The position numbers and the translations under genes were made by a program. Below are positions 7,056 to 26,061 of a DNA stretch of 43,958 nucleotides, piece after piece. The notes under the pieces are model-generated. The model was not told the origin of the DNA. It ran no database searches and was given only the letters and a program-made list of their open reading frames with translations. The DNA is from Acidobacteriota bacterium (GTDB taxonomy: Bacteria; Acidobacteriota; UBA6911): assembly GCA_016933615.1 (NCBI GenBank), contig JAFGAO010000179.1, positions 1 through 43,958 on the forward strand, written 5' to 3'. Numbering within the stretch: the first letter of the stretch is position 1; the number at the start of each line of letters is the position of its first letter.

Positions 7056-7200
7056 GCGTTGTTGCACGTTGAACGTTTTAACGTCGCACGTCAACTGCAA
7101 CTGCTTCCTTGGAACGTTCGACCCGAGACCGGCTTTTTAACTTGCAACGATCTTTTTGTTTTTAACCTTCAACGTGCTAACGTGCAAGCGTGCAACGGTA
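7056..7200. repeat. AACGTT-rich intergenic repeat
   Basis: A gene-free stretch built from variants of GCACGTTGAACG and its complement. GCACGTTGAA (7064-7073) pairs exactly with TTCAACGTGC (7168-7177), and GTTGCAC/GTGCAAC copies flank them. Related words recur at about 9015-9120 and more loosely near 35700-35870, always between genes, which points to a dispersed noncoding repeat family. Confidence 0.5.
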
Positions 7201-7273
7201 TTTCGAATGGCATTTATTTTTGTTAGAGTAAGAGGCATGCAGGGATGTTTCCCCAATAAAGGAGAGAGGTTTC

Positions 7274-8998
7274 ATGAAGAACAGAATCCGAAGATGTCTC
7301 ACGGCACTGCTGTTGCTTGCGCCTTGCATAACAGGCATTTCCGCGGCTCAGGAGCCTGAAATAACCGTTCTCAATCCCCTGGGGCAGCCCCCGGCAATTG
7401 TCCGCGTCCCCATGGCGCCCAGAATCGACGGTCTGGAAGGGAAAACAATCTATATCGTCGATATCGGTTTCACGGACACCCATCAACTGTTCACGGAGAT
7501 GCGGAGCCTTCTTGCGGAGAAATATCCCCAAACAACCTGGATCGTCCGGACCAAAATCGGCACCTACTTCGACGACGATCCGAAGCTGTGGGCCGAGATA
7601 AAAGAGAAAGGGCACGGCATGATCATGGGGGTCGGCCATTGAAGCACATGCGCGCCGGCGGCCGCCGGCCACAGTTGGACAGTCGAAAAGCTTGGAGTCC
7701 CCACCGCTCCCGTCGTCACTTTGAGGTTCGAGAACCTTGTAAAAACATATATTTATAAAAAAGGCATGCCCAATATGCGGTTCACTTTCGTTCCGCACCC
7801 CATTACGGGTACCGCCGCCGAAATCTGCAGGAAATACCTGCAGGGCAGCGACCCGGTCACCGGAAAGCCCGTGCTGGAGGAGATCATCGCGGCGCTTACC
7901 GCGCCTCTTTCGGAAGAGGACACGAAAACGGGGTTCATAGAAAGGCCGACACCCCGGCTGGTTGATCCCGACACCGAGAAGAACCTGCGCCGGACTTTCC
8001 TCGAAAACGGGTGGACGGACGGGCTGCCGATCGTGCTTCCGACCGAAGCGCGCGTCGCAGAAATGCTCAAGGGAACCAGCCACGACCGGGACAAAATCGT
8101 CGGGAGGATGCAGCCGTCCTCGCCCCACGAACTCTGGAGCTACACGGTGGAGAAGGTCGCGGCGAACGCGGTCATGGCGGGCGCAAAGCCGGAACATTTT
8201 CCCGTGATACTGGCGCTGGCGTCCATGGGGGTGACGTCGATATCGACCTCCACGACCTCGTTTGCCACCATGGTGGTCGTCAACGGTCCCGTGCGGAATG
8301 AAATCGGGATGAATTACGGGATCGGCGCGCTGGGCCCCTTCAACCAGGCCAATGCCGTAATCGGCAGGGCATGGACCCTGATGTCCATCAACCTGGGCGC
8401 CAGCGGAAAAGTCGGCGAAACCTACATGGGAAGCCAGGGGAACAATTACAACTACAACAACAACTGCGTGGCGGAAAACGAGGAGGCGCTTCCCGAAGGC
8501 TGGAACCCGCTTCACGTGCAGAAAGGCTACAGCCCCGATGACAGCACCGTGAGCCTATTTCTGGGTTGGGGATTCACCCACCCGGACCAGAGCTTCGGAA
8601 AGGCTTTCGCGCCCCAGATCCCGTTCTGGCTTAAGTTCGTGAGCCCTTTTTCCTCCACGACGCTGGTTCTGGACCCGACCATCATCCAGCAGCTGAAAAA
8701 CAACGAGGGATACGACTCCAAGGAACAGCTGATCGACTGGATCCAGAAAAACACCAGGGTCACGGTCGGGGACTGGCTGGACGATTTCTACGCGGTGCAG
8801 AACTTTGTCCTTCCCACGGCCCGGCGCGGGATCGAACCGTTCGCGTCCTGGATGAAACTGCCGGAGGATGAATGGATCCCGCAGTTCCCGTCGGTTTCCA
8901 GGATCAACATCCTCTGCGTGGGCGGCGGAACAAACCTGTTCTGGCAGGCGGGGGATTTCGGCTATCTTTCGACCGCACCCGTGGATGTATGGCGGTAA
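7274..8998 (+). CDS. Exported UGSC-type selenoprotein with in-frame TGA (copy 1)
   Basis: Read as one 574-residue protein with selenocysteine at residue 123 (TGA 7640-7642). The start at 7274 follows GGAGAGAGG. Residues 1-25 are a Sec signal peptide. Residues about 28-170 resemble the UGSC-type (seleno)protein domain: E-I-T-V-L-N-P-L-G, A-P-R-I-D, G-K-T-I-Y-I-V-D, then G-V-G-H-U-S-T-C. Residues about 200-574 form a large domain of unknown function with the conserved core N-G-P-V-R-N-E-I-G-M-N-Y. The frame stays open for 451 codons after the TGA with no usable start or ribosome site, and the paralogue at 24349-26061 shows matching protein sequence on both sides of its own TGA. U-S-T-C resembles a redox C-x-x-C pair, so a thiol/selenol redox role in the cell envelope is likely but inferred. 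Selenocysteine machinery is outside the window. Confidence 0.85.
7640..7669 (+). promoter_or_regulatory. Selenocysteine TGA and SECIS-like hairpin, copy 1
   Basis: After the TGA (7640-7642) a GC-only hairpin forms: GCCGGC (7654-7659), loop GGCC, GCCGGC (7664-7669). The apical loop starts 17 nt past the TGA and opens with G, consistent with the spacing and loop preference described for bacterial SECIS elements recognised by SelB. The region is also coding, so folding alone is weak proof. Confidence 0.6.
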
Positions 8999-24348: not shown

Positions 24349-26061
24349 CTAGCGCCACTCGTCGATCTGGACCGACCGGGAGGGCACCATGCCGCCCATA
24401 CTGAAATAGTTGTTGTTGGATCCGCCGGTGACGATCACGGTAAAGGTCCCGCCCGCGTTGCGGATGCCGCTGTTGAGGTTCCCGCCGACGGCGGGCTTGG
24501 CGCCGGGCGGCCGGCCCGTCACCCATTCCGTGAACTTTTCGACCGTGTCGTACCCGGCATCCCTGACGAAATTGGCGATCGGGGGGCTGAGAACGGCGCA
24601 GGTTCCGAACAGCCACCCGTCCTGCGTGCCGTAAATTTCCTTGATGATCTCGGGGTAATTCATATTCGGGCCCCAGACGGTCGCGGCCCAGTTCTTGGCG
24701 GAAAGAATGCCCCATCCCATGAACAGGGTGACGACATTCTCGCCCTTCCTGAACCCGCGCCGCACCGACAGCGGCCTGAAGGGGGATTTCTCCTCGTTTT
24801 CGGCCATGATGATCCCGATCAGGTTCATGGGGTTTCCGATCGTGCCCATGTAGGTGGTTCCAACCTTGCCGCAGTTTCCGCCGTTGATGGACAACAGGCT
24901 CCAGGCTCTCCCGATCGTCGTATTGGCATGCGCGTAAGGGCCCACCGCGCCCTCCTCGTAATTCAGCCCGATTTCGTCGCGGATCTCGCCGTTGATCACG
25001 GCGCCCGCCATGAAGCCGTTGTCGGAAACATTGACGGCCGTCATGCCGGTCGAACCCAGAGCCAGGATGACCGGGAAATATTCCGGCGCGGCGCCCGCCA
25101 TGACCGCATTGATCGCCGCGGTCTTTACCGTGTAGGTCCATGTCTCGCCGGCCTCGGATCCCGGATTCATCCTGCCGAGCACTTCGCCGGGTTCGCGGCT
25201 GGTGCTTTTCAGCATCTCGGCCACTTTTTCTTCCGTGGGCAGTTCCACTGGCAGAAAATCCGTGTATCTCTTTTCGAGAAACAGCTTCTGAAGTTCTTCC
25301 GGAGTTCCGGTGTACGTCCCGGGCCCCAGGTCTTTCTTCACTTCCCCGGTCCTGCGTTCTTCGGCGGCCAGGGGTCGTGTCAGGTTTTCCACCAGTTCCT
25401 GCATCACGGGCCTTCCAGTGATGGGATTGCCGCCTTCCATGACCTGCTTGCGGATCTGCTCGTTGGTTTTTCCCCAGACCGGGCCGCGGAAATACTGGAT
25501 CCGGAAGTTGGGCATGCCGAGGTTGAAGGCGACCTCTTTCTGCTGCGCTGCAAAATCGTGCATGACGACGGGCACTGCGGGTTTTTTCATTCTGGACTCG
25601 ATTTCAAAGGAGAGGCGGACCGCCCCCGGTGCGCAGAGGCTTCAATGGCCCAGCCCGACAATGGCGGCGTCCCCCTTTTCGGCAATCTCGGCCCACAGGG
25701 CATCGCTCAGGGACGACAAACCGGCCCCGCTTTGATTGTCCCTGTACACGATGCTGGTTTCGGGATAGTTGGCCCGGAACCATTTCGCCGTTTCATCCAT
25801 AAAGCGGTCGGTCCCGATATAGCCCGTATTGATCAAATAGATCGTCTTGCCGTCCAGCGTGTCCAGGCGCGGCGCCTGCGGCACCAGCCTGATCGGCGGC
25901 GGCGTGCCCATCGGGTTGAGCACGGTAATTTCAGGCATGGAGGCCGGTCCGCCGGACAAAGCCGCCCTCTTTCCCTGCGCATGGGTTTGATGGCTCAGCA
26001 TTGAAACACCGAAAACAAGGCCCAGGCATAAAACTGTAGTGACTGCGATACGCAATTTCAT
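24349..26061 (-). CDS. Exported UGSC-type selenoprotein with in-frame TGA (copy 2)
   Basis: Read as one 570-residue protein with selenocysteine at residue 140 (TGA at 25644-25642); ATG 26061 follows GGGAGGA. Residues 1-29 are a Sec signal peptide (T-H-A cleavage site). P-E-I-T-V-L-N-P-M-G, A-P-R-L-D-T-L-D-G-K-T-I-Y-L-I and G-L-G-H-U-S-L-C match copy 1 at 7274. After the TGA, 17 codons without a start codon lead to the first ATG at 25590, which has no ribosome site, and homology to copy 1 covers this stretch (C-A-P-G-A, P-A-V-P-V-V). The C-terminal domain shares N-G-E-I-R-D-E-I-G-L-N-Y and the final V-Q-I-D-E-W-R (V-D-V-W-R in copy 1). Stop is TAG. Cell-envelope redox function is inferred from U-x-x-C. 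Downstream is an RND relic; upstream lies the RPH-like gene, 138 bp away in the same direction. Confidence 0.85.
25615..25644 (-). promoter_or_regulatory. Selenocysteine TGA and SECIS-like hairpin, copy 2
   Basis: Reading leftward after the TGA (25644-25642): GCG, C, ACC, loop GGGGGC, GGT, C, CGC (25634-25615). The stem has one C/C mismatch, and the loop begins 15 nt after the TGA with G residues, close to the position and loop type in copy 1 although the primary sequence differs. Confidence 0.55.

Follow-up and report, generated by a model that had tools for sequence, protein, structure and literature searches.

UGSC proteins were described in 2008 by the GOS study (PMC2398784), which reported them among the commoner selenoproteins of ocean and freshwater metagenomes. 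The accessible text of that study guesses at a thioredoxin-like fold for UGSC, lists many redox families with a U-x-x-C motif, and already describes a fusion of UGSC to a second domain, Unknown_1. Because both the family and the fusion are in print, calling a gene of this kind a selenoprotein is not new in itself. As for function, UGSC is listed without one in a 2022 review and appears among largely uncharacterised proteins in a 2026 review (PMC13188914), in the accessible parts of each. The other systems that concern us are protein B of glycine/sarcosine/betaine reductase (GrdB, GrdF, GrdH) and PrdB, the D-proline reductase. Within the literature searched, whose coverage was partial, nothing links UGSC with GrdB or describes the expansion in a genus that we report below.

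The window that we analysed is a contig of 43,958 nucleotides from an Acidobacteriota genome. On its forward strand, a frame runs from an ATG at 7274 to a TAA that ends at 8998, and its sole internal stop is a TGA at 7640-7642 (codon 123). Reading through the TGA gives a product of 574 residues with the motif GVGH-U-STC, which we call copy 1; this is the frame that the first-pass annotation had proposed. That annotation also expected simple gene calling to yield a 122-residue protein and a later protein with a TTG start, and both were recovered by mechanical ORF calling (a 122-aa ATG ORF at 7274-7642 and a 425-aa TTG ORF at 7721-8998). A comparison of the fused protein with UGSC profiles had been suggested as a check. 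The Pfam family for UGSC (PF24696) matches copy 1 with 82.8 bits, above its cut-off of 25, and the match straddles the TGA (Table 1). Because the profile spans the TGA, and because relatives have TGA or TGC at this column (see below), the broken frame is not due to chance. NCBIfam's "equivalog" model for UGSC (NF041046) gives 62.7 bits, under its curated cut-off of 125.

Copy 1 has in common with PF24696, NF041046, and the GOS fusion a UGSC domain that is read across a TGA, a U-x-x-C pair, a second domain, and the existence of Sec and Cys forms. Its second domain is likely the Unknown_1 of PMC2398784, as far as the accessible text of that study describes it. In contrast to known UGSC proteins, copy 1 is probably exported, has the motif U-S-T-C, falls below the NF041046 cut-off, and is one of 17 matches in its genome. 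What goes beyond the known family is the expansion in this genus, the signal-like N-termini, a distant relation to GrdB, and split genes that lie beside trxB in some organisms. Our reading is that copy 1 is a single gene for a probably exported selenoprotein, a GrdB-like reductase from a multiplied family. We give this reading as a whole a probability of roughly 0.65.

Table 1. Features of copy 1, and a second UGSC gene, by position in the window
Feature	Positions	Strand	Basis or remark
Purine-rich stretch, possible ribosome-binding site	7262..7273	+	sequence reading; directly upstream of the copy 1 ATG
Signal-like N-terminal peptide	7274..7348	+	MKNRIRR and hydrophobic core, end near ISAAQ; limits approximate
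UGSC domain (PF24696), residues 32-187	7367..7834	+	profile match, E = 4.1e-23
In-frame TGA, read as selenocysteine 123 (predicted)	7640..7642	+	frame and codon column of relatives
bSECIS-like hairpin	7645..7677	+	core stem 7654-7659/7664-7669; loop GGCC at 7660-7663
Cys126, partner in the U-x-x-C pair	7649..7651	+	alignment of relatives
C-terminal domain, ~350 aa	7940..8995	+	without family or clear fold match; separate neighbouring gene in some organisms
TAA stop of the fused gene	8996..8998	+	translation
Second full-length UGSC fusion	24352..26061	-	motif GLGH-U-SLC; TGA at 25639-25641; 39% identical to copy 1

Copy 1 is flanked by an SDR gene and an aminotransferase gene, with gaps on either side, and it looks like a single-gene unit. 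The upstream gap contains an imperfect inverted repeat (7064-7077 and 7164-7177; 14 nt, 93% complementary), and similar words recur in the gap 3' of the gene.

Judging by profile comparison, the UGSC domain is a distant homologue of the domain that carries Sec in protein B of glycine/sarcosine/betaine reductase. Using only loci that were read on the correct strand, we compared the UGSC domain (11 sequences) to six GrdB-like sequences with hhalign. The probability was 94 and E was 1.4e-7, and the alignment pairs the U/C-x-x-C columns of the two profiles. The score was 56.4, as compared to a maximum of 25.1 for 200 column-shuffled profiles and 17.8 for the reversed profile. With all 16 copies from the source genome included, the match was weaker (probability 73, E = 3.1e-5). 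When the UGSC profile was run against 936 translated stretches, the top nine hits were GrdB-like (9 of the 12 such loci), and three of these had E under 0.01. Results for individual proteins varied. A stand-alone UGSC protein from another genome of the genus (G010) matched TIGR01917 (GrdB) in its Sec region with E = 4e-5. Four other stand-alone UGSC proteins had no GrdB-type match at E = 0.01, and among ten UGSC domains tested, one had such a match (E = 0.08-0.1) and nine had nothing at E = 2. None of 51 UGSC-family members matched Pfam's GRDB (PF07355) at E ≤ 5, in a search whose filters remove most matches with E over about 0.1; all 51 members of the same alignment matched PF24696. Given the profile-profile match and the lack of a match to PF07355, we consider UGSC to be a distant relative of GrdB, not a member of that family. 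GrdB itself is absent from the source genome.

The likeness to GrdB, GrdF, GrdH, and PrdB is that Sec-x-x-Cys lies at the same place in what appear to be distantly homologous domains. Another likeness to the GrdB and PrdB systems is that genes of the thioredoxin system adjoin some UGSC family members. Unlike those systems, the UGSC fusion has no PF07355 match, has another second domain, and has a signal-like N-terminus.

An AlphaFold2 model of copy 1 (51 sequences) has a pLDDT of 92.1 and a pTM of 0.89. Strands and helices alternate in the first domain, and Sec123 lies between strand 115-119 and helix 126-139 (secondary structure as read from the model). The model suggests a Rossmann- or flavodoxin-like sheet in which a helix begins with the Sec-x-x-Cys pair. 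Foldseek's highest-probability matches were flavodiiron proteins (probability 0.99, E about 6e-3, about 176 columns); FtsZ, RecJ, and the nitrogenase Fe protein had lower E values but lower probabilities. Because the modelled order is of the alternating Rossmann type, it is at odds with the thioredoxin-like fold that was guessed in 2008, and by the same secondary-structure reading, the beta-alpha order differs from that of thioredoxin-fold selenoproteins. Fold searches of the PDB with the whole model and with the C-terminal domain found nothing at E ≤ 0.001, and a sequence search of the PDB found nothing below E = 0.5. The C-terminal domain (pLDDT of 87.7) had weak, repeated structural matches to class I fumarase, to Toblerone-fold cyclic amide hydrolases, and to the cysteine desulfidase CyuA. 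With E values of 0.017 and up and probabilities of 0.23 or less, these matches are a lead only.

The first-pass annotation described the protein as exported, and the N-terminus of copy 1 is indeed signal-like by a simple Kyte-Doolittle hydropathy test with start codons that we chose (maximum 2.48 over 12 residues). At the strength of that test, copy 1 is probably exported. To find relatives, we built a profile from four copies in the source genome and ran it against named genome contigs. This gave at least 594 stretches and at least 496 relatives, and we kept the best 80. With a threshold of 2.0 for this named set, 14 of the 79 testable relatives have a signal-like N-terminus, all of them within the best-scoring 24 (of the best 80 of at least 496). 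Within the source genome, 14 of the 17 copies have one, counting the copy on contig C44 at 1.99 (just below 2.0); five of these also have a lipobox-like motif, and the copies on C221, C242, and C181 have no signal-like N-terminus. From these two proportions, a typical named member looks cytoplasmic, and most of the expanded lineage looks exported.

The two domains are encoded by separate adjacent genes in Halorientalis, Halalkalicoccus, Arthrobacter, Roseovarius, Variovorax SRS16, and genome G010. (The Variovorax UGSC scores below the NF041046 cut-off.) The UGSC genes of the split forms that we read keep the motif and the part downstream of it, so the split lies at the domain border and not at the Sec codon. 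Another stand-alone UGSC gene, on plasmid pFER4 of Paracoccus ferrooxidans (CP038202; L158:7372-7941), has a TGA in the motif VGLAN-U-GSC and is annotated as two hypothetical proteins. It adjoins a second-domain gene and is about 4 kb from selB, with genes for cysteine desulfurase, TusA, and DsrE close by.

For plasmid context, we read ten neighbourhoods out of 24 matched records, using a plasmid gene table that is incomplete. trxB is annotated in three of the ten: the gene order is trxB-trxA-domain2-UGSC in Arthrobacter and domain2-UGSC-trxB in Roseovarius, and in Variovorax SRS16, trxB lies three genes upstream of the gene for domain 2. The other seven (Halorientalis, Halalkalicoccus, Acidovorax, Neorhizobium, Variovorax boronicumulans, Sporomusa, and Paracoccus) have no annotated trxB. 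CoA-transferases and TRAP or TTT transporter genes are recurrent neighbours on the plasmids. A 20-kb stretch of G010 combines a Pyr_redox_2 (TrxB-like) gene next to a stand-alone UGSC gene with a TGA, a stand-alone second domain, and three fused copies (one with a TGA) with a DHDPS-like gene, a MaoC-like gene, a MarR regulator, and three CoA-transferase III genes, one of which is double.

Among the neighbours in the source genome that were identified with profiles (four around copy 1 and ten around other copies), none is a thioredoxin or a thioredoxin reductase. Two strong TrxB matches in this genome are on other contigs (C145 and C166), and weak matches (below 29 bits) are more than 8 kb away from the copies on C253 and C69. 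Other copies are near an aldehyde ferredoxin oxidoreductase (C181) or a TPP/ferredoxin enzyme (C249). The copies on C253 and C39 are near subunits of molybdenum hydroxylases of the xanthine-dehydrogenase type (L033:4769-10573 and L036:1509-3797), and L033 also has a molybdopterin oxidoreductase near its UGSC copy.

We propose the following mechanism. UGA 123 would be decoded as selenocysteine by SelB and tRNA-Sec, aided by the hairpin just downstream, and the signal-like N-terminus would place the protein outside the cytoplasm. The selenolate may then attack a small organic substrate that is held between the first and C-terminal domains and cleave it reductively. Cys126 would bond with the Sec as Se-S, and a thioredoxin-type donor would reduce this bond, as in GrdB and PrdB. 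That the family of copy 1 has GrdB-like reductive chemistry is, we think, close to an even bet. Against the proposal, a cytoplasmic thioredoxin cannot directly feed an exported protein, and trxB is not among the profile-identified neighbours of the source genome's own copies and is annotated in only three of the ten plasmid neighbourhoods.

Alternatively, copy 1 could be a selenoprotein with a general thiol-disulfide or peroxide-type role, such as envelope redox repair, and cleave no substrate. The apparent export of 14 of the 17 copies would suit such a role, as would the thioredoxin-like fold guessed in PMC2398784 and, in the accessible text, the many U-x-x-C redox families listed there; the trxB and trxA neighbours are compatible with both views. 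But the clear distant relative is the Sec domain of GrdB, the model has a Rossmann-type order with flavodoxin-like proteins as its high-probability Foldseek matches, and several of the neighbourhoods are catabolic (CoA-transferase III, MaoC, DHDPS, and TRAP/TTT transporters). We consider a general redox role to be unlikely, if the strongest of the alternatives.

The reductase reading and the general redox role both take copy 1 to be a selenoprotein, and UGA 123 almost certainly encodes selenocysteine. Among the best 80 of at least 496 relatives, the codon that aligns with copy 1's TGA is TGA in 61, TGC (Cys) in 18, and CTG in one. Sec or Cys is thus present in 79 of these best 80, and the second Cys, three residues on, is present in all 80. 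(These counts include L096 and L118, which have an additional TAA or TAG.) By their names, the records with TGC belong to Hyphomicrobiales and kin, Hyphomonadaceae, or Ramlibacter, and they provide the Cys orthologues that the first-pass annotation had said to look for. If the TGA were instead a true stop, then copy 1 would be two proteins or a broken gene (a pseudogene or a sequencing error). The halves do occur as separate genes in the organisms with split forms named above (Halorientalis through G010), and there is a mechanical TTG start at 7721, but the natural split is at the domain border, away from the Sec codon. Also, TGA is found in 61 of the best 80 relatives where 18 have Cys, a hairpin follows, and 15 of the 16 own-genome copies that were aligned (all but C44) have TGA in a common column. 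A true stop is therefore very improbable.

The evidence for the hairpin is the position of its loop. Counting the T of the TGA as 0, 49 of the 61 named TGA genes (among the best 80 of at least 496) and 6 of 15 TGA genes from the source genome have a best loop that begins at offset 20; these sequences are related, and the counts are not of independent events. In the 18 TGC genes, which are one branch of the family so that descent and function are not fully separated, the best loop never starts there, and the hairpin is not at that place. The loop at offset 20 is mostly GGUC (GGCC in copy 1). The folding energy of the 48 nt after the codon, relative to synonymous shuffles, differs weakly: mean z was -0.54 for own Sec genes, -0.51 for named Sec genes, and +0.28 for Cys genes, and in the own set, some of the control offsets come to -0.43 as well. 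We also tried counting a fixed six-pair stem, which was formed in 74% of cells for named Sec genes, 54% for own Sec genes, and 40% for Cys genes. Sliding the stem by -3 gave 81%, 59%, and 55%, respectively. Because the slid position scores as well or better, we discarded the fixed-stem count as evidence for a SECIS and rely on the position of the best loop.

The source genome (3.62 Mb in 298 contigs, 82% complete) contains all of the selenocysteine machinery whose presence was to be checked: selA (561 bits), selB (383 bits), two selD genes over the cut-off, and a tRNA-Sec. The tRNA-Sec is on contig C296, has a UCA anticodon, and scores 73 bits, and the Rfam model and ARAGORN agree on it. A second candidate, on contig C14 (L037:5834-5923), scored 53.5 bits with Rfam's tRNA-Sec model, above the cut-off; ARAGORN identified it as a tRNA-Ser with anticodon TGA, and we rejected it. 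Each of the selD genes (L024 and L025, on contigs C97 and C203 of the source genome, G000) has one in-frame TGA. Together with the UGSC match and the Cys orthologues, the machinery supports the first-pass annotation's main claim, of one selenoprotein across the TGA. TGA looks avoided as a stop in this genome (among 15 ordinary genes that we checked, the stop is TAG in 8, TAA in 6, and TGA in 1), as might be expected if this lineage decoded UGA as some other amino acid, but such an altered code is very improbable as well, given the Sec machinery, the presence of Cys at this codon in 18 of the 19 relatives that lack the TGA (among the best 80 of at least 496), and the absence of in-frame TGA from the same 15 genes, which include selA and selB.

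Selenocysteine thus remains our reading of the codon, and most other copies in the genome have a TGA as well. At E ≤ 1, PF24696 has 17 matches in the source genome; 15 are over the cut-off and 16 have an in-frame TGA. The match on C14 has two TGA codons within it and the match on C181 has none. The match on C44 (L029; G000:C44:6327-6794) contains both a TAA and a TGA and is a broken gene or an assembly error. The 15 other copies that were aligned are 24-53% identical to copy 1.

All ten genomes of the genus that we examined have many UGSC matches (17, 12, 10, 19, 27, 28, 14, 16, 11, and 11, for a total of 165). Among five further genomes of the same taxonomic family, one has one match. We listed 150 of the 166 genus and family matches, and of those listed, 131 contain one or more in-frame TGA codons and 19 contain none. 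A sample of 396 genomes from the phylum included 386 from outside the genus, of which 30 have 1-2 matches and the rest have none; this sample scored at most 8 candidates per genome, and the counts for the genus are from a separate search. We also built a quick tree (LG+G4) with 105 rows: 16 copies from the source genome, 52 others from the family or genus (26 of 27 family loci were retained), and 37 of the 80 named relatives, with the frame chosen by shared words. The source genome's copies mostly group with copies from other genomes (15 label changes among 16 rows, as compared to a shuffled mean of 15.1), although the copies C14, C181, C253b, and C242 have long branches and are placed unsurely. 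Rows from genomes G012, G009, and G006 are at zero distance from records named Acidobacteria bacterium nzgw75, Zod_Metabat.240, and AS06rmzACSIP_132, and these deposited MAGs most likely belong to the genus. Given this branching and identities of 24-53%, the paralogues are not strain duplicates, and most of the duplications look older than the species.

Some copies have lost part of the motif. C253b, from the source genome, has no second Cys (U-G-A-A). We read the Sec column in 18 copies from other genomes of the genus, and 14 have neither Sec nor Cys; they have Ser, Lys, Asn, Asp, Gly, Thr, or Leu instead (loci L175-L177, L181, and L185, which were chosen partly for a missing TGA). In these 14, the redox residue was apparently lost, and not exchanged from Sec to Cys. 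Because of these copies and C253b, not all members need share GrdB-like chemistry. Another paralogue (L037:1103-2875, - strand) has four in-frame TGA codons: two of them would give neighbouring Sec residues (GGUUGC), and the other two fall in GGHUVU at the C-terminus. L184 from G010 (G010:C289) has the same four, and because they are conserved, this looks like a real four-Sec protein.

Other genomes are rich in selenoproteins: the Delta 1 symbiont of Olavius algarvensis is reported to have 57 selenoprotein genes, and a Methylomirabilota MAG is reported to have 63 (cited in the accessible text of PMC13188914). The likeness lies in having many selenoprotein genes in one genome, whereas the genus studied here has 10-28 copies of a single family per genome. 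Since the reported upper bounds for all selenoprotein genes together are 57 and 63, it is unusual for a single family to have as many as 28 matches. Having 10-28 divergent copies per genome, most of them with TGA, suggests that these reductases differ in the substrates on which they act. The proposed parallel is with the reductive dehalogenases of dehalogenating bacteria, where one enzyme is multiplied for many organic substrates. That each paralogue has a single substrate is a tentative suggestion. More doubtful still is a broader proposal, that UGSC proteins might be a large and so far unrecognised class of GrdB/PrdB-type reductases that depend on Sec and have an unclassified domain in place of the pyruvoyl subunit, and that this genus would have exported and multiplied the enzyme 10- to 28-fold for many substrates.

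Reading TGA as a stop hides genes of this kind, and the Paracoccus plasmid record shows two hypothetical proteins instead. With the relation to GrdB, the trxB neighbours in some organisms, and 10-28 mostly exported-looking copies per genome, a family whose function is listed as unknown would become a testable class of enzymes.
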